Of a DNA stretch of 64,000 bases, positions 824-11,971 are shown piece after piece. The notes beneath the pieces are model-generated. The model was given only the letters and a program-made list of their open reading frames with translations, did not search any database and was not told the DNA's origin. Source of the stretch: Streptomyces oceani. GTDB taxonomy: Bacteria; Actinomycetota; Actinomycetes; Streptomycetales; Streptomycetaceae. Numbering within the stretch: position 1 is the first letter of the stretch; each line of letters starts with the position of its first letter. The translations under genes were made by a program, and so were the position numbers. Location: positions 94,244 through 158,243 of the forward strand of contig NZ_LJGU01000114.1 in NCBI RefSeq assembly GCF_001751245.1. The letters are read 5' to 3'.

Positions 824-2994
824 TCAGGTCCAACGCACCCGGACGCGTGCCGGCGCACCGCGCGTCCCGTCCGGCCCCACCGCCGTCAGTTGGAGCGTTG
901 TGCTCGACTCCTCCGCGAGTCGGGTCAGTGTCTTGACGTAGTACACCTCGTCCAGGATCCGACCGACGGCCTGCCGGCCACCCCGCGGCAACTCCCGGTG
1001 GATGTCGTAGTACCACACGCCGGTCCCGGCGAACCGCCAGGAGAGGAAGACCTCCGCCCGGTCGCCGTCCGGGTGTACGGCGTCCACGGTGAAGTCCCGG
1101 GGACGCTCCGGCCGTCGTGGCCGACCGCCCTCCAACAGCGCCAACTCTCCGAGGTGCAGGGCGTACGCGCGCCGCCGCGCCGCGGAGACCCGCACCCCGA
1201 CGGCGGCGATCGTACGGCCACGGAAGGCGTCGAGGTGCTGGGTGAAGTGGTTCCAGGTGCGGTTGGCGGCGACGCCGACAGGCAGCCACACGAAGCGTTC
1301 CGGGTCATCGGCGAGCAGCACGCCGACCTCCAGGCCGCTGTCCTCGCCCGCCGCGCCGGTCGCGTACGTCACGGACAGCCGCTCACCACCGGTGACCCGC
1401 AACCGGGTCTTGAACAGCCGCACGGTGGTGGGGTTGTCCGGACCGAGTTCGCCGGATACCCGCAGCGCGCAGCCCCCGTCGTACGCCTGGTCGTAGTCGT
1501 AGTCCACGGTCAGGGGCTCTCCGGAACCGCCGCTTCGGGTCCAGAACTGCCAGGTGGGCAGAATGTCCTGAATACTGGCGTTGTTCCATTCCGCCTCGCT
1601 CGCCCGCTTCCCCTCCAGGAAGAAGGAGCGGCCGTGTCCGGTGTTGAAGCGGGTGACGAAGGGGAAGGCGCCGATCACCGAACGTTCCGTGATGTAACGG
1701 GCGACCCCGTCCCACTTCCGGTGGTTGTCCGGGTCGCGCGGCTTCCCCTCGTCCTCCTCCGGCCACGGGACGTACTCCGTACGGCCGGTGCGGGTGGGGT
1801 CCTCGTACGGCCGGTGCGGGTGGGGTCCTCGTTCGGGCCGGACCAGTACCAGCGTTCCCGCTGGAATACCTCGTCCTGCGCGTCCGGGTCCTCCCGATCC
1901 GGGTGGCGGTCCCAGGGGAAGTGTGAACCGAACAGCGCCCAGCTGGTGCGTGCCCGCTCCCCCTCCGGGAAAACCAACCGGGTGTCGTAGGGCGGGTTGT
2001 AGCCGTACTTCTCGGTCTCGGTGCCGTGGTAGACGGCCTCGTACGGGTCCAGCCCCAGCCGCTCGGCGGTTTTTCGTGAGGTGATGACCTGCTGGGCGTC
2101 CGGCAGCCAGTAGTTGGGGAAGATGCTGTGCGCGACGGGGGTGCCTTCGTCCTGGATCCAGGGCGCGTTCCTCTCGTTGAGCTGGTTCTGGTAGTCCAGC
2201 TTCCCGTTCGCCAGGATGGTGTCGTACCACTGGATGTGGAAACCCTCGGGCGCCCGCGACCGGAGGTACTTCAGCAGCTCCATCAGCCGCGCCGCCTCCG
2301 GGGCCGGGGTGTCGTCCTCCTGGTTGACGAAGTAACCGTCGAAACCGAAGTAGCCGGCCATCTCGATCAGCTTGTCCGCCACCGGGAAGGACCCGTCCGC
2401 GCGCCGCTCGAGGTAGTCGTCGAAGTCACCGTCGCGGGGCCAGAACCAACAGCCGAGGCTGCGCGCGCCGTTGCGATGCGCGGCGTCCGTGTAGGCGGGA
2501 TTGGGCAGGTTGACCACACCGTGTACCGGTTCGTCGGTGGGTGAGCCATCGACCGGCATACCGTGCCAGGAACCGTAGATGTCGGTGTACTGCCAGAAAC
2601 GCAACAGCCGCCGGGCGAAGACGTCGTTGTACTTGTGCGCGGCGAAGAAGCTCTTGTCGTAGTCGAAGCTCAGGTTCATCACCCGCGCGGCGGTGGGGCG
2701 ACGCGGATCCGCCTGGGTGGCGGCGAACGGCGGAATCCGGGTGGCCAGCGGCACCCGGGAGCGGAAGTACTTCGCGAAGCGGTCGGTCTCCGGGCTCCAG
2801 TTCTTCAGCGCCTTCGCGTCGTAACCGTGCATGTACGGCTGGTGCGGCGCCCGTCCGGCGGCCGGGTCCTCGCCGGCGGCGGTGGTCACGGTGGTCGCGG
2901 CCCGCGCCGCCGAGGGCAGGGGGCCCGCCGGTCCGGCGAAGCCGACGGTGACTCCGGCGGCACTGAGCATGCCGATGAAGGTCCTGCGGTCCAT
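824..2994 (-). pseudogene. GH85 endo-beta-N-acetylglucosaminidase, frameshifted by a 26-bp tandem duplication
   Basis: GH85 enzymes cut the GlcNAc-GlcNAc bond of N-glycan cores. The first frame (2994 to about 1830) starts with a Tat-like signal (MDRRTFIGMLSAAGVTVG) and carries the catalytic region, with FDGYFVNQED holding the expected glutamate. It then runs out of frame. The matching continuation, RYITERSVIGAFPFVTRFNT and onward to RVRVRWT, is in another frame (to 824). The break sits on a perfect 26-bp tandem duplication at 1778-1829. Removing one copy restores a continuous 714-residue protein of normal GH85 size with C-terminal beta-sandwich domains. The gene follows GH38 by 15 bases, so it is last in the N-glycan operon. 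The frameshifted form keeps the catalytic barrel but loses the accessory domains. A sequencing or assembly artefact is possible. Confidence 0.9.
1778..1829. repeat. 26-bp perfect tandem duplication inside the GH85 gene
   Basis: Two adjacent identical 26-bp units (1778-1803 and 1804-1829) begin CGTACGGCCGG and are followed by three more matching bases. Because 26 is not a multiple of three, the second unit shifts the reading frame. The protein motif DPTRTGRT is encoded in both frames on either side, which marks the duplicated segment. Slippage could add or remove a unit. Confidence 0.95.
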
Positions 2995-3009: not shown

Positions 3010-6000
3010 TCAGTCCTCGCGGCGTCGCAGCCGCAGTGTGGTGATCTCGAACGGGCGCAGCGACAGCGGGATGACCTCCCCCGCGTCCGTGCTCTCCGTC
3101 ACGACCTCGGCCGTCGGCCGCTCCAGCAGGTCGCAGCGGGTCGCCGAGGCCAGCGGGAAACCGGCGGTCAACCGGGTCCGTACCCGACCGCCGTGTGCCT
3201 CGTGCAGCCGGACGACCACGTCTGTGCTGCCGTCGTCGGCGAGCTTGACGGCGGTGATGACCACGGCGTCCTCGTCCGCCGACACCAGGGGCGGCACGGC
3301 GGAGTCGCCGGGCAACCGCCGCTCGGGCAGGTTGAGATGGTGGCCCTCGCGTACGGCGTCCCCGATCGTCGCGCCCGGCACCAGCGCGCAGCGGAAGCGG
3401 TGCACGCCCTGGTCGGTACGCGGGTCAGGGAAGCGCGGGGCACGGAGCAGGGAAAGCCGCACGGTGGTGGCGGTGCAGGTCTCAGCGAGCGCCCCGGCCT
3501 CCCCCGGAGTGCGGGAGACGTCGTAGCCGTAGGTCGAGTCGTTGACCAGCGCCACGCCCCAGCCGGGCTCCGTAAGGTGCACGAAGCGGTGCTGGCATGC
3601 CTCGAACTTCGCCGCGTCCCAGCTGGTGTTGGTGTGCGTGGGCCGGTGCAGGTGGCCGAACTGGGTCTCGGCCGCGATCCGGTCGGTGTGTACGTCCAGT
3701 GGGAAGGCCAGCTTGAGGAACTTCTCGGTCTCGTGCCAGTCCACCTCGGTGGCGACCTCCAGCCGCCGCTCCCCGGCAGGAAGGGTCAGCACCTGCTCGA
3801 CGCGGGAGGAGCCGAAGCGGCGCGTCACCCGTACCGACGCGCCGTCCGCTGACGTGTTCCCGGCGGCGTCCGCCTCCGCCTGGTCCGCCGCGGTCACCGA
3901 CTCGGCCTCGGTGAGGTCGGTGACGGTGTTGCGGTAGAAGTGGTCCACGTCCCAGGCGTCCCACATGTTCGGGAAGTCCTGGTGCAGTTGGAGCAGGTTG
4001 GCGGGCTGCCCGGGCGCCAGGGTCTCCCGATCGGCGACGGTGTCGTACACCGAGCGGACGAGACCGGCGGCGTCGACGACCACCCGCAGCAGCCCGTTGT
4101 CCAGCACGAAACCGCCCTCCGCGGCGACGTCGCGCCGGGTCGGCTCCGCCGTGTGGGAGACCGGCCGTGCGCCCCCGGCCGGTACCTGGGAGCGGGCGTG
4201 CGGCGCGGCGTTGAAGACCAGTTCGCCACCGGCCGGCGCGTCGCCCGCGAGCGTGGCCTGCGCCTCTCTGATGATCGCCTCCAGCTCCGCGGCGACCTCC
4301 GCGTACGTACGGGCCGCCTCGCGGTGCACCCAGGCGATGGAGGTGCCGGGCAGGATGTCGTGGAACTGGTGCAGCAACACCGTCTTCCACAGCCGGTCCA
4401 GCGCCTCGTGGGGGTACGCGTACGGCCGTCCGGGAGCCGATCGTACGGCCGCCGTGGCCGCCCAGAGTTCCGCCTCGTACAGCAGGCGCTCGCTGTGCCG
4501 ATTGCCCTGCTTGGTACGGGCCTGGCTGGTCAGCGTCGCCCGGTGCAGTTCGAGATACAGTTCGCCGGCCCAGACGGGGGCGTGCGCGTACTCCTCCTCG
4601 GCCTTGGTGAAGAACTCCGCCGGCTTCTCGAAGCTGACCCTGGCCGAGCCCTCGAGGTCGGCCAGCCGCCGGGCGCGCGCCAGCATCTCGCGGGTGGTGC
4701 CGCCTCCCCCGTCGCCCCAGCCGGTGGGGGCCAGCGACCGGGTGGCGCCGCCCTTCTCCTGGAAGTTGCGTACGGCGTGCGCGACCTCCGCGCCGGACAA
4801 CTGGGCGTTGTAGCTGTCGATCGGCGGGAAGTGGGTGAAGACGCGGGTGCCGTCCAGACCCTCCCACCAGAAGGTGTGGTGCGGGAACTTGTTCTGCTGG
4901 CTCCAGGAGATCTTCTGGGTGAGGAACCATCGGGCGCCCGCCTGTGTCACCAGTTGCGGCAGCGCGGCGGAGTAGCCGAAGGTGTCGGGCAGCCAGACCT
5001 CCTCGGTCTCGATCCCGAACTCCTCCAGGAAGAAGCGCTTGCCGTGTACGAACTGCCGGGCGAGCGCCTCCGATCCGGGCATGTTGGTGTCCGACTCCAC
5101 CCACATGCCGCCCACCGGCACGAAGCGGCCGTCCGCCACGGCCCGCTTGACCCTGGCCCACACCTCCGGCCGGTGCTCCTTGAGCCAGGCGAACTGCTGG
5201 GCCTGGGACATGGCGTAGACGAACTCGGGCGCGTCGTCCAGTAGCGCCGTCATGTTGGAGGCGGTCCGCGCCACCTTGCGTACGGTCTCGCGCAGCGGCC
5301 AGAGCCAGGCCGAGTCGATGTGCGCGTGTCCCACCGCGCTGATCCGGTGTGCCGAGGCGTGCGCGGGGGACGTGAGGACGCCGGTGAGCCGCTCCCGGGC
5401 GGCGGCGGCCGTACCACTGATGTCGCCCAGGTCGACTGTGTCCAGGCAGCGTTCCACGGCTCGCAGGATCTCCCAGCGGCGCGGAGTGTCCGGGGACAGC
5501 TCGGCCATCAGGGAGCCGAGCACGTCCAGGTCCTGGGTCAGCTCCCACACGGTCTCGTCGAAGACGGCGAGGTCCATCCGGGCCAGCCGGTACTGCGGCT
5601 CGTCGCCGGCCGTCTCCCGGTCGCCGAGCTCGGTGGGCAGGAAGGGATGGTAGTCGAGGATGACCGGGTTGGCGGCGGCCTCGACGTGCAACCGCACCCG
5701 TTCGCCGCCGGCCACCTCGGAGCCGATCCGCACCCAGGTGTTGCGCGGGTTGAGCCCCTTCACGGGGGTGCCGTCCGGCTCGTAGACCAGGCCCTCGCAC
5801 TGGAAGCCGGGCATGTTGTCGTCGAAGCCGAGGTCCAGGACGGCCTCGACCGTACGGCCCGCCCAGTCGGCCGGCACCGTCCCGGAGACGGTGAACCAAC
5901 TGGTGGACCAGGGGGCTCCCCACGGGTCGCCGACGGCGATGGGGCTCGGCTCTGCGGCCAGTCCCTCGGCGACGGGCACCGGCTCGCCGGGGGCGTGCCA

Positions 6001-6105
6001 CACGCCCACCTCGAGGGGGACGGCCTCGGCGTAGCACGCCGGGCGGATGCGTTCGTCGAGTACCCGCTTGAGCCGGGCCTCGGTCACGGAACGGTCGTTG
6101 TGCAT
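3010..6105 (-). CDS. GH38 alpha-mannosidase, cytoplasmic
   Basis: A 1031-residue protein, the usual length for GH38. It hydrolyses alpha-linked mannose from N-glycan-type oligosaccharides. HAHIDSAWLWPL near residue 261 is the metal-binding motif, and LPDTFGYSAALPQL near 372 contains the nucleophile aspartate. Beta-sandwich domains follow and the chain ends TTLRLRRRED. There is no signal peptide, so it should act inside the cell on imported glycans. The ATG at 6105 is preceded by GAGGAAG. It lies between the GH5_18-like gene (93-base gap) and GH85 (15-base gap) in one leftward transcript that also encodes the transporter. Family is certain; N-glycan specificity is inferred from context. Confidence 0.95.
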   Translation of the reverse strand: MHNDRSVTEARLKRVLDERIRPACYAEAVPLEVGVWHAPGEPVPVAEGLAAEPSPIAVGDPWGAPWSTSWFTVSGTVPADWAGRTVEAVLDLGFDDNMPGFQCEGLVYEPDGTPVKGLNPRNTWVRIGSEVAGGERVRLHVEAAANPVILDYHPFLPTELGDRETAGDEPQYRLARMDLAVFDETVWELTQDLDVLGSLMAELSPDTPRRWEILRAVERCLDTVDLGDISGTAAAARERLTGVLTSPAHASAHRISAVGHAHIDSAWLWPLRETVRKVARTASNMTALLDDAPEFVYAMSQAQQFAWLKEHRPEVWARVKRAVADGRFVPVGGMWVESDTNMPGSEALARQFVHGKRFFLEEFGIETEEVWLPDTFGYSAALPQLVTQAGARWFLTQKISWSQQNKFPHHTFWWEGLDGTRVFTHFPPIDSYNAQLSGAEVAHAVRNFQEKGGATRSLAPTGWGDGGGGTTREMLARARRLADLEGSARVSFEKPAEFFTKAEEEYAHAPVWAGELYLELHRATLTSQARTKQGNRHSERLLYEAELWAATAAVRSAPGRPYAYPHEALDRLWKTVLLHQFHDILPGTSIAWVHREAARTYAEVAAELEAIIREAQATLAGDAPAGGELVFNAAPHARSQVPAGGARPVSHTAEPTRRDVAAEGGFVLDNGLLRVVVDAAGLVRSVYDTVADRETLAPGQPANLLQLHQDFPNMWDAWDVDHFYRNTVTDLTEAESVTAADQAEADAAGNTSADGASVRVTRRFGSSRVEQVLTLPAGERRLEVATEVDWHETEKFLKLAFPLDVHTDRIAAETQFGHLHRPTHTNTSWDAAKFEACQHRFVHLTEPGWGVALVNDSTYGYDVSRTPGEAGALAETCTATTVRLSLLRAPRFPDPRTDQGVHRFRCALVPGATIGDAVREGHHLNLPERRLPGDSAVPPLVSADEDAVVITAVKLADDGSTDVVVRLHEAHGGRVRTRLTAGFPLASATRCDLLERPTAEVVTESTDAGEVIPLSLRPFEITTLRLRRRED

Positions 6106-6198: not shown

Positions 6199-7473
6199 TC
6201 AGCCCCGCGGTCCGGGGCGCTGGGGCGTCGGCGGCACGTCCCGCGGCTCGACGACCTCCGAGATGCCGCGTGCGGCGAGCCGTTCGGCGTCCGCGGCCTC
6301 TTCGGCCAGCACGCAGGCGGGACGTACGCCGTCGGCGGCCAGCCGCATCCACGCCTCGAAGTACGCGCCGCCGGGCGCGCACGCCGCGCGACCGCCGGAC
6401 CCGTCCGCGCCGTGCAGCACGAGCGCGGTCGTACGCGCCCTCGGAGGCCGCCAGGACTGCCGCAGTTCCGCCACCGCCTCGGCGAGGGCGGCACCGGCCG
6501 GCTTGACCCGCCGGTCGTTCGTCAGCAACCCGAGGTCGTACTCCAGCTCCGGGAAGTCCGCCAGCGAACGGTCGACGTCATGGGAGCTCCACCAGGTGAC
6601 CCCCCACACGTCCGGACAGTCCAGCGCGTTGCGGACGGTCGCGGTGGTGAAGGCGCCGGCCCGCTCCGGCGGGACGTGCGGGGCCGGGGCGCCGACCTCC
6701 TGCAGCCACACGGGGCGGTGCGGTTCCTCGGCCCAGGGCTTGGCCAACTCGATGAGGTACGCCGCGTGCTGCTCGGTCGCCGTGGCGCTGGGACCATGCC
6801 GCTGCGCGGTGCCGTTGAACACCCAGGAGTGCACGTTCGTCATGGCGCCGATCCGCGCCGCGTGCGCCGGGGTGAAGGGGTGCCCGTCGGCGTACCAGGC
6901 CGCGTCGTCCGAGGCGTGCAGGTGCGTACGGCCGGGGGCGCCGGCCTCGCAGGCGGCGACCATGCGTCGCAGCCACTCGGCGGCCTCCGCCTCGGTGATC
7001 CGGTCCGGGTCGGGGTGCGGGTCCGAGGAGAACTGGTTGGTCTCGTTGCCGACCGTCATGCCGAGGAAGTGCGGCCGGTCGGCCAGCGCCTGGGCGAGCG
7101 TACGCAGGTACTCCGCCTGGCCCGCGGTCACTTCGGGATCGGTGAAGAGGTTGCGGCGGTGCCAGGTGGTGGTCCAGGACGGGACGAAGTCGAAGCTGGA
7201 GAGATGGCCCTGGAGCCCGTCGACGTTCACCTCCAGTCCGCGTTCCCCCGCGGCGTCGACCAGGGCCACGAGCTGTTCGACGGCACGCGGGCGGACCAGG
7301 GTGCGGTTGGGCTGGAAGAGGGGCCAGAGGGGGAAGACCCGGACGTGGTCGAGCCCGAGCTCGGCGACGGAGTCGAGATCGGCGCGCACGTCGTCCAGGT
7401 CGAAGTCGAGCCAGTGGTGGAACCAGCCCCGGGTGGGCGTGTAGTTGACACCGAAGCGGGGGGTGGCGGTCAT
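6199..7473 (-). CDS. GH5 subfamily 18-like beta-mannosidase (Man-beta-1,4-GlcNAc cleaving)
   Basis: A 424-residue TIM-barrel glycosidase without a signal peptide, beginning MTATPRFGVNYTPTRGWFHH. VGNETNQF near residue 141 gives the Asn-Glu acid/base pair, and PVWLQEVGAP near 256 gives the nucleophile glutamate, both as expected of clan GH-A. The N-terminus and GWFHHWLDFDLDDVRADLDS resemble GH5_18, whose characterised bifidobacterial members split Man-beta-1,4-GlcNAc, the last step of N-glycan trimming. The start was set at the ATG before this conserved N-terminus; the open frame runs further upstream but overlaps the permease gene. An AGGACA sequence precedes it. Subfamily assignment is from recalled motifs, not alignment. 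Confidence 0.82.
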   Translation of the reverse strand: MTATPRFGVNYTPTRGWFHHWLDFDLDDVRADLDSVAELGLDHVRVFPLWPLFQPNRTLVRPRAVEQLVALVDAAGERGLEVNVDGLQGHLSSFDFVPSWTTTWHRRNLFTDPEVTAGQAEYLRTLAQALADRPHFLGMTVGNETNQFSSDPHPDPDRITEAEAAEWLRRMVAACEAGAPGRTHLHASDDAAWYADGHPFTPAHAARIGAMTNVHSWVFNGTAQRHGPSATATEQHAAYLIELAKPWAEEPHRPVWLQEVGAPAPHVPPERAGAFTTATVRNALDCPDVWGVTWWSSHDVDRSLADFPELEYDLGLLTNDRRVKPAGAALAEAVAELRQSWRPPRARTTALVLHGADGSGGRAACAPGGAYFEAWMRLAADGVRPACVLAEEAADAERLAARGISEVVEPRDVPPTPQRPGPRG

Positions 7474-7616: not shown

Positions 7617-8447
7617 TCAGCCCTTGACGGCGCCCTCCCCCACGCCACGGAAGAAGTAGCGCTGCAGGCAGGCGAACATCACGATCAGGGGTGCCACCGC
7701 GATGACGGTGCCGGCGGCCACCAGCCGTGGATCGTTCTGGAAGGTGCCGTGCAGGAAGTTGAGGCCGACGGTGAGGGTGAAGTTCTCCGAGTCGGAGAGG
7801 ACGATCAGCGGCCAGAGGAAGTCGTCCCAGGCGGTCATGAACGCGAAGATGGCGACCACCGCGAGCGTGCCCCGGACCGCGGGCAGTCCGATGCGCAGGA
7901 ACCGTTGCCAGACGTTGGCGCCGTCGATCACCGCGGCCTCCTCCAGCTCGTACGGCAGCGCCTGGAAGGCGTTCCGCATCAGCAGGACGTTGAGGGCGCC
8001 CACGGCGCCGGGGAGGACGACGGCGACCAGGGTGTTGTTGAGTTCGAGCTGCTGCATGGTGGTGAACTGGGCGATGATGATGCTCTCCAGCGGCACCAGC
8101 AGCGCCATCACGAACAGCAGCCCGGCGATCTTGCGTCCACGGAAGCGCAGCCGGGCCAGGGCGTAGCCGGCCAGTGAGGCGCCGACGCAGTTGGTGACGA
8201 CGTTGGCCGCGGCCACCTTGAGCGAGTTCAGGGCGTAGTCCCAGACGGGGATGATCTCCGCGACTCCGGAGTAGTTCTCCAGCGTCGGGTCTCCGGGCAA
8301 CAGTCGCGGCGGATCGCTGTAGACGTCCTCGGCGGGCGACTTGAGCGAGGTGGACAGCTGCCACAGGAACGGCCCGATGGTGATCACCAGTACCAGGAGC
8401 AGCAGGGCGTACCGCAGGATGCGCTCCCGTCGGCTCATGCGCTTCAC
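7617..8447 (-). CDS. Carbohydrate ABC transporter permease (MalG/CUT1 type)
   Basis: A 276-residue membrane protein with six hydrophobic segments. The cytoplasmic EAA loop (ELEEAAVIDGANVWQRFLRI) binds the ATPase. The GTG start at 8447 sits 7 bases after AGGAGG, and its first base-group overlaps the stop of the upstream permease in a GTGA junction, which implies translational coupling. It pairs with the 8444-9322 permease to form the import channel for the oligosaccharide bound by the 9364-10668 lipoprotein. No ATPase is encoded in the operon, so a shared MsiK-type ATPase elsewhere in the genome is likely. Confidence 0.94.
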   Translation of the reverse strand: MKRMSRRERILRYALLLLVLVITIGPFLWQLSTSLKSPAEDVYSDPPRLLPGDPTLENYSGVAEIIPVWDYALNSLKVAAANVVTNCVGASLAGYALARLRFRGRKIAGLLFVMALLVPLESIIIAQFTTMQQLELNNTLVAVVLPGAVGALNVLLMRNAFQALPYELEEAAVIDGANVWQRFLRIGLPAVRGTLAVVAIFAFMTAWDDFLWPLIVLSDSENFTLTVGLNFLHGTFQNDPRLVAAGTVIAVAPLIVMFACLQRYFFRGVGEGAVKG

Positions 8448-9322
8448 GGCGCGTCCTCCTTACGGTCGGCGCGCAGCACCAGCAGCATCAGCGCGAGCGC
8501 GATGGCGAAGATGACCAGCGAGATGGCGGAGGCGTAACCGACCCGGCCGCCGAGCCCGGTGCCGACCCGCTGGACCAGCATGACCAGAGTGGTGTCGGCG
8601 CCCGCCGGGCCGCCGTCCGGGCCGGCCAACAGGTACACCTCGGAGAACACCTTGAAGGCGGCGACCGAGGACAGCGCCCCGACGAGCACCATGGTGGAGC
8701 GCACGGCCGGCACCGTGACGCTGACGAACCGGCGTACGGGCCCGGCACCGTCCACGGCGGCGGCCTCGTGCAGTTCCCTGGGGACGTTGCCCAGCGCGGC
8801 GAGATAGATGATCATGTAGTAGCCGAGGCCCTTCCACACCGTGAGCGCCATGGCGGAGAACAGCAACAGCCACTGGTCTCCGAGGAAGTTGACGCGGTCG
8901 GCTCCGAGGGTGACCAGCAGGCTGTTGACCAGCCCGCGGTCGTCCAGCATCCAGGACCAGATCAGGCCGACCACCACCACCGAGGCCACCACGGGGGTGT
9001 AGAAGGCGGACCGGAAGAAGGCGACCCCGGGGATCCGCTGCTCCACCAGCAGCGCGAGCAGCAGGGGCAGCAGCACGGTGAAGGGCACCACGAGCGCCAC
9101 GTACAGCAGGCTGTTGCGCAGTGCCACCCAGAACAGCTCGTCGCTCAGCAGTTGGCGGAAGTTCTCCAGGCCCACCCAGCTGCCGGCGGTGAGCGTACGG
9201 GCGTCGGTGAACGCCTTGTACGCGGTGCTGAGGAAGGGATAGAGGTTGAAGGCGAGGGTGATCGCCAGTCCGGGCAGCAGGAACAGCCAGGGGCTGACCG
9301 TCCGGTGAGTGCGTACGCGCAT
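8444..9322 (-). CDS. Carbohydrate ABC transporter permease (MalF/CUT1 type)
   Basis: A 292-residue permease. Its N-terminal helix PWLFLLPGLAITLAFNLYPF and the EAA loop ELHEAAAVDGAGPVRRFVSV are typical of the CUT1 MalF/UgpA group. It sits between the binding protein (41-base gap) and the second permease (4-base overlap). GGAAG precedes the ATG by 5 bases. It forms half of the membrane channel for glycan import, and substrate choice is set mainly by the binding protein. Confidence 0.94.
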   Translation of the reverse strand: MRVRTHRTVSPWLFLLPGLAITLAFNLYPFLSTAYKAFTDARTLTAGSWVGLENFRQLLSDELFWVALRNSLLYVALVVPFTVLLPLLLALLVEQRIPGVAFFRSAFYTPVVASVVVVGLIWSWMLDDRGLVNSLLVTLGADRVNFLGDQWLLLFSAMALTVWKGLGYYMIIYLAALGNVPRELHEAAAVDGAGPVRRFVSVTVPAVRSTMVLVGALSSVAAFKVFSEVYLLAGPDGGPAGADTTLVMLVQRVGTGLGGRVGYASAISLVIFAIALALMLLVLRADRKEDAP

Positions 9323-9363: not shown

Positions 9364-10668
9364 TCAGTGCTTCCGGAGCAGCTTGTTGCTCTCGGCGACG
9401 GCGTCGTCGAGTGCCTGCTTCGGGGACTTGTCGCCCTGGAGAGCCTTGGCGATCTCGTTCCGCAGGATCGTCTCCATCTCGTCGTTCATCACCACGGGCT
9501 GGTAGTTGACGGCGCCGTCCAGCGACTGTGCGGAGTTGACCCGGACCCGGCCGGCGGCGGTGCCGTCGTCCTCGCTCCAGTAGTCCTTGTCCAGAGAGCC
9601 CCTGGTGCTGGGGAAGACGGCGGTCTGGTGGCCGAACTTCTCCTGGTTCCGCTTGTTGGTGACGAAGTGGGCGAAGGCGATGGCGGCGGGCTTGTGCTCG
9701 CTCTGGTCGCTGACCGCCAGGCCCATCAGGTACATGTTCGGCCGGCCGGTGTTGTTGGGCGCCTTGGTGATGCCGAGGTTCTCGTAGAGGCTGGGGGCGT
9801 TGTTCCTGAAGTTCGCCAGGTCGAGGGCGCTGCCCGGATTCATCGCGACGCGCTGCTTGAGGAACTTCTGCCCGGCCTTCTCCGGGGTGTTGGTCAGTGC
9901 CTGTGCGTCCAGCCCGCCCTGCTCGTAGAGCTTCTTGTAGCGGGTGAGCAGTTCGACGCCGGCTGGTTCGTTGTACGTGAACTCGGTGGCGTCCTCGTTC
10001 ATCAGCCGCACGCCGTAGCGGCCGAAGTTCTCGATGGTCGGGGTGGCGGCGAGGGTGGGGATCCTGCCCTCGGAGCGTTCCGCGATCCGCTCGGCGTAGC
10101 GGAAGAGCGCGTCGTAGTCGCGCGGTGGCTTCTCCGGGTCGAGTCCGGCGTCCTCGAGGAGCGCCTTGTTGTAGAACAGCGGGCCGGTGTTGAGGTACCA
10201 GGGGAAGGCGTACGTACCGCCGAGGCCGGGCATCTCGTAGCCGTCCCAGGCCTCCTTGGTGTACTCCGGCCGGTACTTCGCGGTGGCCCGCTCGGCGTCC
10301 ATGTTCATGATCACGCCGGCGTCCGCGAGCGGGTAGGCCAGGTCCGGCGAGACGTTGATGACGTCGGGCAGGCTGCCGGACCCGGCGTCAGCGCTGAGCT
10401 TGTCCGCGTAGTTCTCCGCCGGCTGGTCCGCCCACTCGACCCGGACGTCCGGGTGCCGGGACTCGAACTCGTCGATCAGCGTCTCGAAGTAGTCCTTGAA
10501 CTCCGCGCGAAGGTTCCAGGTCTGGAAGGTGATGTCGCCCTCGACCGGGCCTTCGGCGCTGGTGGCGGGTCCGCCCACGCCGGGCCCGCAGGCGGTGAGC
10601 AGCAGGGACAAGGCCGCGGGCACGACGGCGAGTGCCGCCGCCCGGCGAGCGGGACGTGCGGAGGGCAT
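9364..10668 (-). CDS. Sugar ABC transporter substrate-binding lipoprotein
   Basis: A 434-residue extracellular binding protein of the SBP_bac_1 family. The signal peptide ends in a lipobox (LLLTACGPG), so the mature protein is anchored through cysteine. The ATG at 10668 was chosen over an upstream in-frame ATG because AAGGAG lies about 11 bases before it and the signal peptide begins there. It is the first gene of the leftward operon and lies opposite the LacI gene across a 229-base regulatory region. Given the downstream GH5_18, GH38 and GH85 genes, its likely ligand is an N-glycan or high-mannose oligosaccharide with a single reducing-end GlcNAc. That ligand is inferred. Confidence 0.93.
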   Translation of the reverse strand: MPSARPARRAAALAVVPAALSLLLTACGPGVGGPATSAEGPVEGDITFQTWNLRAEFKDYFETLIDEFESRHPDVRVEWADQPAENYADKLSADAGSGSLPDVINVSPDLAYPLADAGVIMNMDAERATAKYRPEYTKEAWDGYEMPGLGGTYAFPWYLNTGPLFYNKALLEDAGLDPEKPPRDYDALFRYAERIAERSEGRIPTLAATPTIENFGRYGVRLMNEDATEFTYNEPAGVELLTRYKKLYEQGGLDAQALTNTPEKAGQKFLKQRVAMNPGSALDLANFRNNAPSLYENLGITKAPNNTGRPNMYLMGLAVSDQSEHKPAAIAFAHFVTNKRNQEKFGHQTAVFPSTRGSLDKDYWSEDDGTAAGRVRVNSAQSLDGAVNYQPVVMNDEMETILRNEIAKALQGDKSPKQALDDAVAESNKLLRKH

Positions 10669-10819
10669 GACCGGGTGGCTCCTTGGGCGTGGCGCGGCGG
10701 GGATGAAAAAGAAGGTGCCCCGAACTCCGAACACAGGTCAACACTCCCACCGAAACTTTTCACAACTAAATTCATTACCGCAGGTCAGCACCCTGAAAAG
10801 ATCCTCAGAAGCGGAGATG

Positions 10820-10857: not shown

Positions 10858-10867
10858 TGACTGACTG

Positions 10868-10890
10868 TACAATCAGCTGCACACAGGAGG
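10868..10890 (+). promoter_or_regulatory. -10 element and ribosome binding site of the LacI gene
   Basis: TACAAT (10868-10873) is a good -10 hexamer, with the second operator occupying the -35 position, so the regulator probably represses itself. GGAGG (10886-10890) lies 7 bases before the ATG at 10898, leaving a leader of about 20 bases. Confidence 0.55.
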
Positions 10891-10897
10891 TGAGGCA

Positions 10898-11971
10898 ATG
10901 CGCCGTACGCCGGCACGACGCCCGACCATCAAGGACATCGCCCAGCGCGCCGGTGTCTCGGAGAGTGCCGTCTCGTTCGCGCTCAACGGCCGGCCCGGCG
11001 TCTCGGAGGGCACCCGGAACCGGGTACGCCGGGTGGCCGCTCAGCTCGGCTGGCAACCCAGTACGGCCGCCCGGGCCCTGTCCGGTGAGGGCTCGGCGAC
11101 GATCGGCCTCGTGCTGGCCCGGCCAGCCAGCACGCTGGGTGTCGAGTCGTTCTTCCTGCAGTTGGTCTCCGGTGTCCAGGAAGTCCTGGCCGCACGCAGA
11201 CTGGGCCTGCTGTTCCAGGTCGTTCCGGACCTGGAGGCGGAGTGCGAGATCTACCGCCGGTGGTGGGCGGAGCGCCGGGTGGACGGCCTGCTCGTCGTCG
11301 ACCCTCGCACCGACGATCCGCGCCCGGCCCTACTGACCGAACTCGGCCTGCCCGCGGTCGTGATCGGCGCGATGAACACGCATCCCGGGGGCGAGGAGAA
11401 CACGACGTCCGAGAGCCACCTGGCCAACCTCTGGGCCGACGACGCCGGCGCGATGGCCTCCGTCGTCGACCACCTGCACGACCTGGGTCACCGACGCATC
11501 GTGCATGTCGCGGGGCTGCCCGAACTGGTGCACACCCAGCGACGCGTCAACTCGCTGCGCGCCGAGGCCGAGCGCCGCGGGCTGCCCGAGGTGCGCTCGG
11601 TCAGTACGGACTACTCCGACTCCGAGGGGGCCGCGGCCACCCGGAGGTTGCTGACCGGCGAGCACCCCCCGACCGCGATCGTCTACGACAACGACGTACT
11701 GGCCGTCGCGGGGCTCGCGGTGGCCACCGAGCGGGGCTACCGGGTGCCGGACGACCTCTCGGTGATCGCCTGGGACGACTCGGTGCTCTGCCGTAGCACC
11801 CATCCCCCGCTCACCGCGCTGTCCCGGGACACCACCGCCTTCGGTCAGCACGCCGCCGAGCAACTGTTGGCCATGCTCGACGGCGAGGCCGGGACACGCG
11901 TCCAGGACACCCTGCCGCACCTGCTGGCCCGCGGCAGCACGGCCTCTCCGGCCGAGCCCACCCTCGGGTGA
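10898..11971 (+). CDS. LacI-family transcriptional regulator of the glycan operon
   Basis: A 357-residue regulator. Residues 10-55 form the LacI helix-turn-helix and hinge (PTIKDIAQRAGVSESAVSFA, then GWQPSTAARALSG). The rest is a periplasmic-binding-protein-like effector domain, ending in the usual DDLSVIAWDDS and LTALSRDTTAFGQHAAEQLL segments. It is divergent from the transporter/glycosidase operon and separated from it by two matching operators, so it almost certainly represses that operon and itself. The inducer is probably a glycan fragment such as Man-GlcNAc or mannose; this is inference. Confidence 0.93.
   Translation: MRRTPARRPTIKDIAQRAGVSESAVSFALNGRPGVSEGTRNRVRRVAAQLGWQPSTAARALSGEGSATIGLVLARPASTLGVESFFLQLVSGVQEVLAARRLGLLFQVVPDLEAECEIYRRWWAERRVDGLLVVDPRTDDPRPALLTELGLPAVVIGAMNTHPGGEENTTSESHLANLWADDAGAMASVVDHLHDLGHRRIVHVAGLPELVHTQRRVNSLRAEAERRGLPEVRSVSTDYSDSEGAAATRRLLTGEHPPTAIVYDNDVLAVAGLAVATERGYRVPDDLSVIAWDDSVLCRSTHPPLTALSRDTTAFGQHAAEQLLAMLDGEAGTRVQDTLPHLLARGSTASPAEPTLG

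Follow-up and report, generated by a model that had tools for sequence, protein, structure and literature searches.

A 26-bp tandem duplication breaks the GH85 gene of an apparent N-glycan-use operon in Streptomyces oceani

Introduction

In Streptococcus pneumoniae, the GH85 enzyme EndoD frees the glycan, which an ABC importer brings into the cell, as described in PMC5215778. Another GH85 enzyme, Endo-A, has a TIM barrel (domain 1, residues 1-350) with the catalytic residues N171, E173 and Y205, and with W216, W244 and Y299 around the site (PMC2646837). Domains 2 and 3 of Endo-A are interdigitated according to the authors of that work, and domains I to III are reported to be conserved in Endo HS-alpha as well (PMC12961652).

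Here we describe a GH85 endo-beta-N-acetylglucosaminidase gene of Streptomyces oceani in which a tandem duplication breaks the reading frame. The gene lies in a stretch of 64,000 nucleotides, which we call the window. A preliminary description had proposed that the duplication could be a recent loss, a slippage-reversible switch or an assembly artefact. We weigh these readings against the structure of the gene, its relatives, its neighbours and the assembly itself.

Results

The GH85 gene occupies positions 824-2994 of the window on the minus strand and its frame is broken at two identical 26-bp units, which lie head to tail at 1778-1829. As the gene is read, the first unit is 1804-1829 and the second 1778-1803. 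The copies are exact, and the self-match extends 3 nt beyond the second unit. A third copy, partial and imperfect, adjoins the two units, so that Tandem Repeats Finder reports 2.4 copies (1778-1841). No inverted repeat was found in 1500-2100.

On the coding strand, the first unit is preceded by CCGGCCCGAACG (1830-1841, minus strand), an imperfect direct repeat of the CCGGCC-GTACG that closes each unit and a likely anchor for slippage. With a 3'-end-anchored alignment, the direct-repeat homology at the unit boundary scores 7.5; among 20,000 random sites of the same 26-nt geometry drawn from 400 kb of the window's scaffold, 0.2% attain this value. Such an imperfect direct repeat bounding the unit is a signature of slipped-strand mispairing.

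The unit occurs at no place other than these two in the 6,311,054-base assembly, even when up to two mismatches are allowed. Within the 1,591,184 bases of the assembly that we sampled for genome-wide duplication counts, it forms the sole exact tandem duplication that overlaps a coding-like frame and has a basic unit of at least 20 bp with a length not divisible by 3 (two period-20 entries were left out because their basic units are 10-mers). We conclude that the 26-bp duplication in the GH85 gene is more than chance.

Longer arrays are present elsewhere in the genome. A 118-bp unit is repeated exactly 6.9 times about 3 kb before the window (C151:90188-90998) and a 30-bp unit exactly 21.5 times at C151:307676-308321, neither in a coding-like frame. 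A third array, with 13.8 copies of a 42-bp unit, lies inside a coding-like frame of 640 codons (C150:299077-299655).

The duplication separates two pieces of the gene. The N-terminal piece (1830-2994, minus strand) holds the start, the conserved N-x-E catalytic motif and most of the barrel. The C-terminal piece (824-1777, minus strand), out of frame with the first, holds the barrel end, the accessory domains and GH85_C. The first open reading frame runs from 2994 to 1675 and encodes 439 aa: 388 residues ahead of the repeat and nine from the first unit, which make 397 native residues, followed by 42 foreign ones. It ends at a premature stop (1675-1677, minus strand), which shares bases with a GTG (1676-1678) in the frame of the C-terminal piece, the two together reading GTGA. 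The remainder of the gene is open in another frame to 824, with no stop before its own end.

Both pieces belong to the same enzyme. The 439-aa frame matches PF03644 with an E value of 8.5e-54 over profile positions 13-268 of 302, and the C-terminal piece matches the end of that profile (259-302) with 21.6 bits against a cut-off of 22.2, and with 22.7 bits in a second search. The C-terminal piece also matches PF21910, the GH85 C-terminal domain (E 4.8e-11). Aligned with Endo-A (PDB 3fha), the piece before the repeat covers residues 13-324 and the piece after it residues 326-602. The two pieces therefore cover the GH85 profile and Endo-A in succession, as one gene split at the repeat. This agrees with the preliminary description, in which the two units shift the frame and loss of one would restore a 714-residue enzyme.

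The Asn-x-Glu pair and the following Tyr (N171, E173 and Y205 of Endo-A) are present in the N-terminal piece, with positions counted by hand along the 3fha alignment. Counted in the same way, all of N171, E173, Y205, W216, W244 and Y299 fall ahead of the break, which lies at about Endo-A residue 325.

The barrel is not complete, contrary to the earlier claim that the broken form keeps it. The break lies at Endo-A residues 324-326 while the barrel runs to 350, and the PF03644 match is interrupted at about 259-268 of 302. By the Endo-A alignment, the native part of the truncated form stops some 25 residues short of the barrel domain's end and includes nothing of domains 2 and 3; the absence of these two agrees with the loss of C-terminal domains proposed earlier. 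Thus the gene matches the catalytic and C-terminal domain profiles of GH85 and has its catalytic residues, and one open frame through domains 1-3 is absent. Judged from its sequence, the window gene is a broken member of GH85 that is predicted to encode no full enzyme.

With the barrel end and the accessory domains missing, the 439-aa product is most likely inactive. The preliminary description had allowed that the duplication either switches off or trims the enzyme; because the break falls before barrel residue 350, trimming most likely amounts to inactivation. Our literature search on deletions of the barrel end or accessory domains returned no deletion data. An AlphaFold model of the intact S. 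violens GH85 (from a 7-row alignment) had a mean pLDDT of 51.8; we did not use it to place secondary structure because pLDDT is 20-35 over residues 321-440, across the break region.

To place the duplication among relatives, we compared 19 GH85 loci, some from the same genus and some from outside it. Setting aside the window itself and one locus with only the first 103 residues (L043) leaves 17 loci, which represent at most 16 genomes because L004 is contained in L040, a Streptomyces violens contig. In all 17, the distance between the two GH85 pieces is a multiple of three and both halves share one frame; the second 26-bp unit is absent from every one. Six loci from five genomes (L004/L040, L005, L007, L033 and L034) have 27 nt between the pieces, compared with 53 (27+26) in the window, and in each of the six this stretch encodes EDPTRTGRT. 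The other eleven differ in inter-piece length, in part because their aligned pieces end at other places. The proposal of one extra unit set between conserved sequences is therefore borne out, with 17 of 17 loci in frame and six shorter by exactly 26 nt. One stop in L008 and two in L009 lie upstream of the start and hence break no gene.

Within the genus, 155 of 392 genomes, that of S. oceani included, have a GH85 match. Among the matches listed, no GH85 has an open frame shorter than 588 aa, compared with 444 aa in S. oceani, where two matches lie out of frame; the matches listed leave out G036, the S. oceani genome, and three weaker ones (G150, G321 and G030), and some may be broken or at contig ends. 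The nearest GH85 genes found by DNA are only 75-77% identical. A whole-gene search of 296 relatives hit five genomes besides our own, the nearest at 75% DNA identity (G086, which holds the S. violens contig).

The neighbours of the gene point to a function in N-glycan use. Directly upstream lies a GH38 alpha-mannosidase gene that is intact by profile (3010-6105, minus strand). It is preceded on the same strand by a GH5_18 beta-mannosidase-like gene (6199-7473, start approximate), which matches ScGH5_18 (PDB 7lr7, E 2.8e-215) and has no Pfam match at 1e-4, by two sugar ABC permease genes (7617-9322, PF00528 in both) and by a solute-binding protein gene (stop-to-stop frame 9367-10737, PF01547). 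A divergent LacI-family regulator gene follows on the plus strand (stop-to-stop frame 10865-11968, PF00356 and PF13377). The run thus looks like an operon for N-glycan use (solute-binding protein, two permeases, GH5_18, GH38 and GH85) in which GH85 comes last.

By analogy with S. pneumoniae, the broken gene would encode the release step of N-glycan use. Since GH85 is apparently last in such an operon, the release step has probably been lost and the import and trimming genes kept. GH38 stands directly ahead of GH85 in two further loci (L034 and L040, the latter from S. violens). In Streptomyces sp. Ru71, GH85 is preceded by a divergent NAGidase gene (PF07555; L033:1853-3913). A search of a plasmid collection gave no match to similar DNA.

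The broken gene is the only GH85 found in its genome. We also considered redundancy through GH18: two GH18 genes were found and both match chitinases, one of them with a sub-threshold match to Endo H (19.5 bits, cut-off 300). Accordingly, no second endoglycosidase was seen in the families searched (GH85 and GH18).

The sequence downstream of the break shows no decay. GC3 is 0.886 in the out-of-frame half and 0.912 in the first half. Against five intact relatives, pN/pS of the downstream piece is 0.505-0.57, and the ten pairs among these relatives give 0.245-0.785 with a median of about 0.63. The tip-length ratio B/A is 1.39 in the window gene versus 0.66-6.36 in 11 intact relatives. The event is therefore either recent or absent from the living strain.

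Taken together, we consider it probable that the gene is a fresh and in principle revertible pseudogene, produced by a slipped-strand error at the end of an N-glycan-use operon. The locus has both the direct-repeat homology at the unit ends and the one-unit state in relatives that a slippage-type duplication should have. During copying, the growing end at CCGGCCGTACG would have slipped back by 26 nt and paired anew with CCGGCCCGAACG, to which it is nearly identical, and the unit would then have been copied a second time. The extra 26 bp shift the GH85 frame, with the predicted product described above. The strain would then probably have lost glycan release while keeping import and trimming, and the allele may revert by dropping a unit, as often as short tandem repeats of this kind contract.

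The strongest competitor is an error of assembly, in which a 26-bp overlap between two contigs was left unmerged when they were joined, so that the living strain would carry one unit and an intact gene. We regard this as less likely than slippage, though a real possibility. The sequence is a single draft of 166 contigs with N runs, and its joins are imperfect. Of the 21 single-N joins in the sample, nine have a sequence of 45-282 bp duplicated on their two sides, and two of these lie on the scaffold that carries the window. Duplicated flanks also occur at 2 of 15 sampled longer gaps, and one gap has a 12-bp end overlap. Overlaps left unmerged elsewhere in the assembly speak for an artefact here, as do the absence of the extra 26 bp from all 17 homologous loci and a downstream half that looks fully maintained.

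The site itself looks different from those joins, with no N at it or between the 26-bp copies. No second exact tandem repeat of period 26 exists in the 1.59 Mb sampled, which also speaks against an assembler artefact of that fixed length. Nor are local duplications, defined as 20-mers repeated within 300 nt, in excess: the sampled part of the genome has 58 (36.5 per Mb), or 51 (32.1 per Mb) once seven pairs with N between them are removed, against 47.5 and 45.0 per Mb in two relatives, for which the samples are small (400 kb each of G308, a one-contig genome, and G351, with two contigs) and from other species. When only spacings of 13-60 nt not divisible by 3 are counted, the density is 3.8 per Mb (6 cases), compared with 7.5 (3 cases) in each relative. 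A shared word of at least 20 nt was present at 4 of 1,000 random N-free points, two of the four inside long repeat arrays. Finally, the boundary homology, matched by so few random sites, is expected under slippage and not under contig overlap.

The nine single-N joins with duplicated flanks are C151:253663, C151:381542, C150:336411, C147:135533 and five more. Given these unmerged overlaps, any further duplication that this genome seems to show close to an N should not be trusted. A single N also stands one base before window position 1 (C151:94243), with no duplicated flank there; the window thus starts directly after an assembly join or an uncalled base.

Far less support is found for a phase-variable switch, in which one unit would mean on and two units off, with a high rate of change selected as bet-hedging for N-glycan use. 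In its favour, contraction of a perfect tandem repeat is possible, and the homologous loci have the one-unit length. Nonetheless, the second unit recurs in none of the 17 related loci, and two copies of 26 bp are unusual for a contingency locus. We therefore think it very improbable that the repeat is such a switch, and just as improbable that cells with one and two units coexist, so that release by GH85 would come and go against a background of constant import and trimming. Nothing indicates regulated switching, or selection for it, beyond the possible loss of one tandem unit.

Stop/start overlaps of the GTGA kind are known for coupled genes. The gene might thus still work as two polypeptides or by frameshifting, with the ribosome stopping at the TGA and restarting at the overlapping GTG (GTGA, 1675-1678), so that the accessory domains would form a separate polypeptide. 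We think this very improbable. The hints in its favour are that overlap and a bare GGA 7 nt ahead of the GTG. Against it, the 20 nt before the GTG hold nothing longer than GGA as a Shine-Dalgarno-like sequence, a restart would omit the barrel end, and a TGA overlapping a GTG is in our judgement an unsurprising coincidence in high-GC DNA. Programmed frameshifting was rejected: the first frame has three X_XXY_YYZ heptamers, at 2926, 2245 and 1972, and none lies at the repeat.

Discussion

Among the three readings offered at the outset, recent loss is the best supported. The reversible switch has no support beyond the possible loss of one unit, and the artefact retains some indirect support from the joins of this assembly. 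A slipped-strand pseudogene, if real, would be a clean case of a single slip that disables the release step in an operon for sugar use. If it is an artefact, it means that joins of this assembly can mimic pseudogenes. Neither a real mutation nor an artefact would surprise a specialist. The locus also carries a caution for annotation: a 439-aa product scores strongly as GH85 very likely without having a complete barrel.

We searched the literature for a Streptomyces precedent, slippage pseudogenes, reversible microhomology duplications, intragenic duplication and false duplications in drafts. Among the papers listed for these topics, none bears directly on the case; a further search returned PMC3519483.

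Compared with known slipped-strand (microhomology-mediated) frameshift pseudogenes, the event here is inferred from one assembly. In its features the locus resembles them: the unit is short and exact, its boundary has homology, its length is not a multiple of 3, the intact alleles of relatives are without the extra unit, and the downstream sequence is undecayed.

With phase-variable contingency loci it shares that the number of units in a tandem repeat sets the reading frame. Unlike them, it has only two long units, and none of the 17 loci has the second.

As for the enzyme, the two pieces match GH85 enzymes (Endo-A, PDB 3fha and 2vtf; Endo-D, 2w91) consecutively and keep the N-x-E motif and the tyrosine, but in the window they are out of frame.

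At the level of the locus, the closest likeness is to the S. pneumoniae N-glycan loci as presented in PMC5215778 (EndoD, ABC-NG and SpGH38), where an ENGase, a sugar ABC importer and a GH38 enzyme likewise occur together. The window differs from what is described there in that it also has a GH5_18 gene, in that its genes form one operon-like run, and in that GH85 comes last in this run and is broken.
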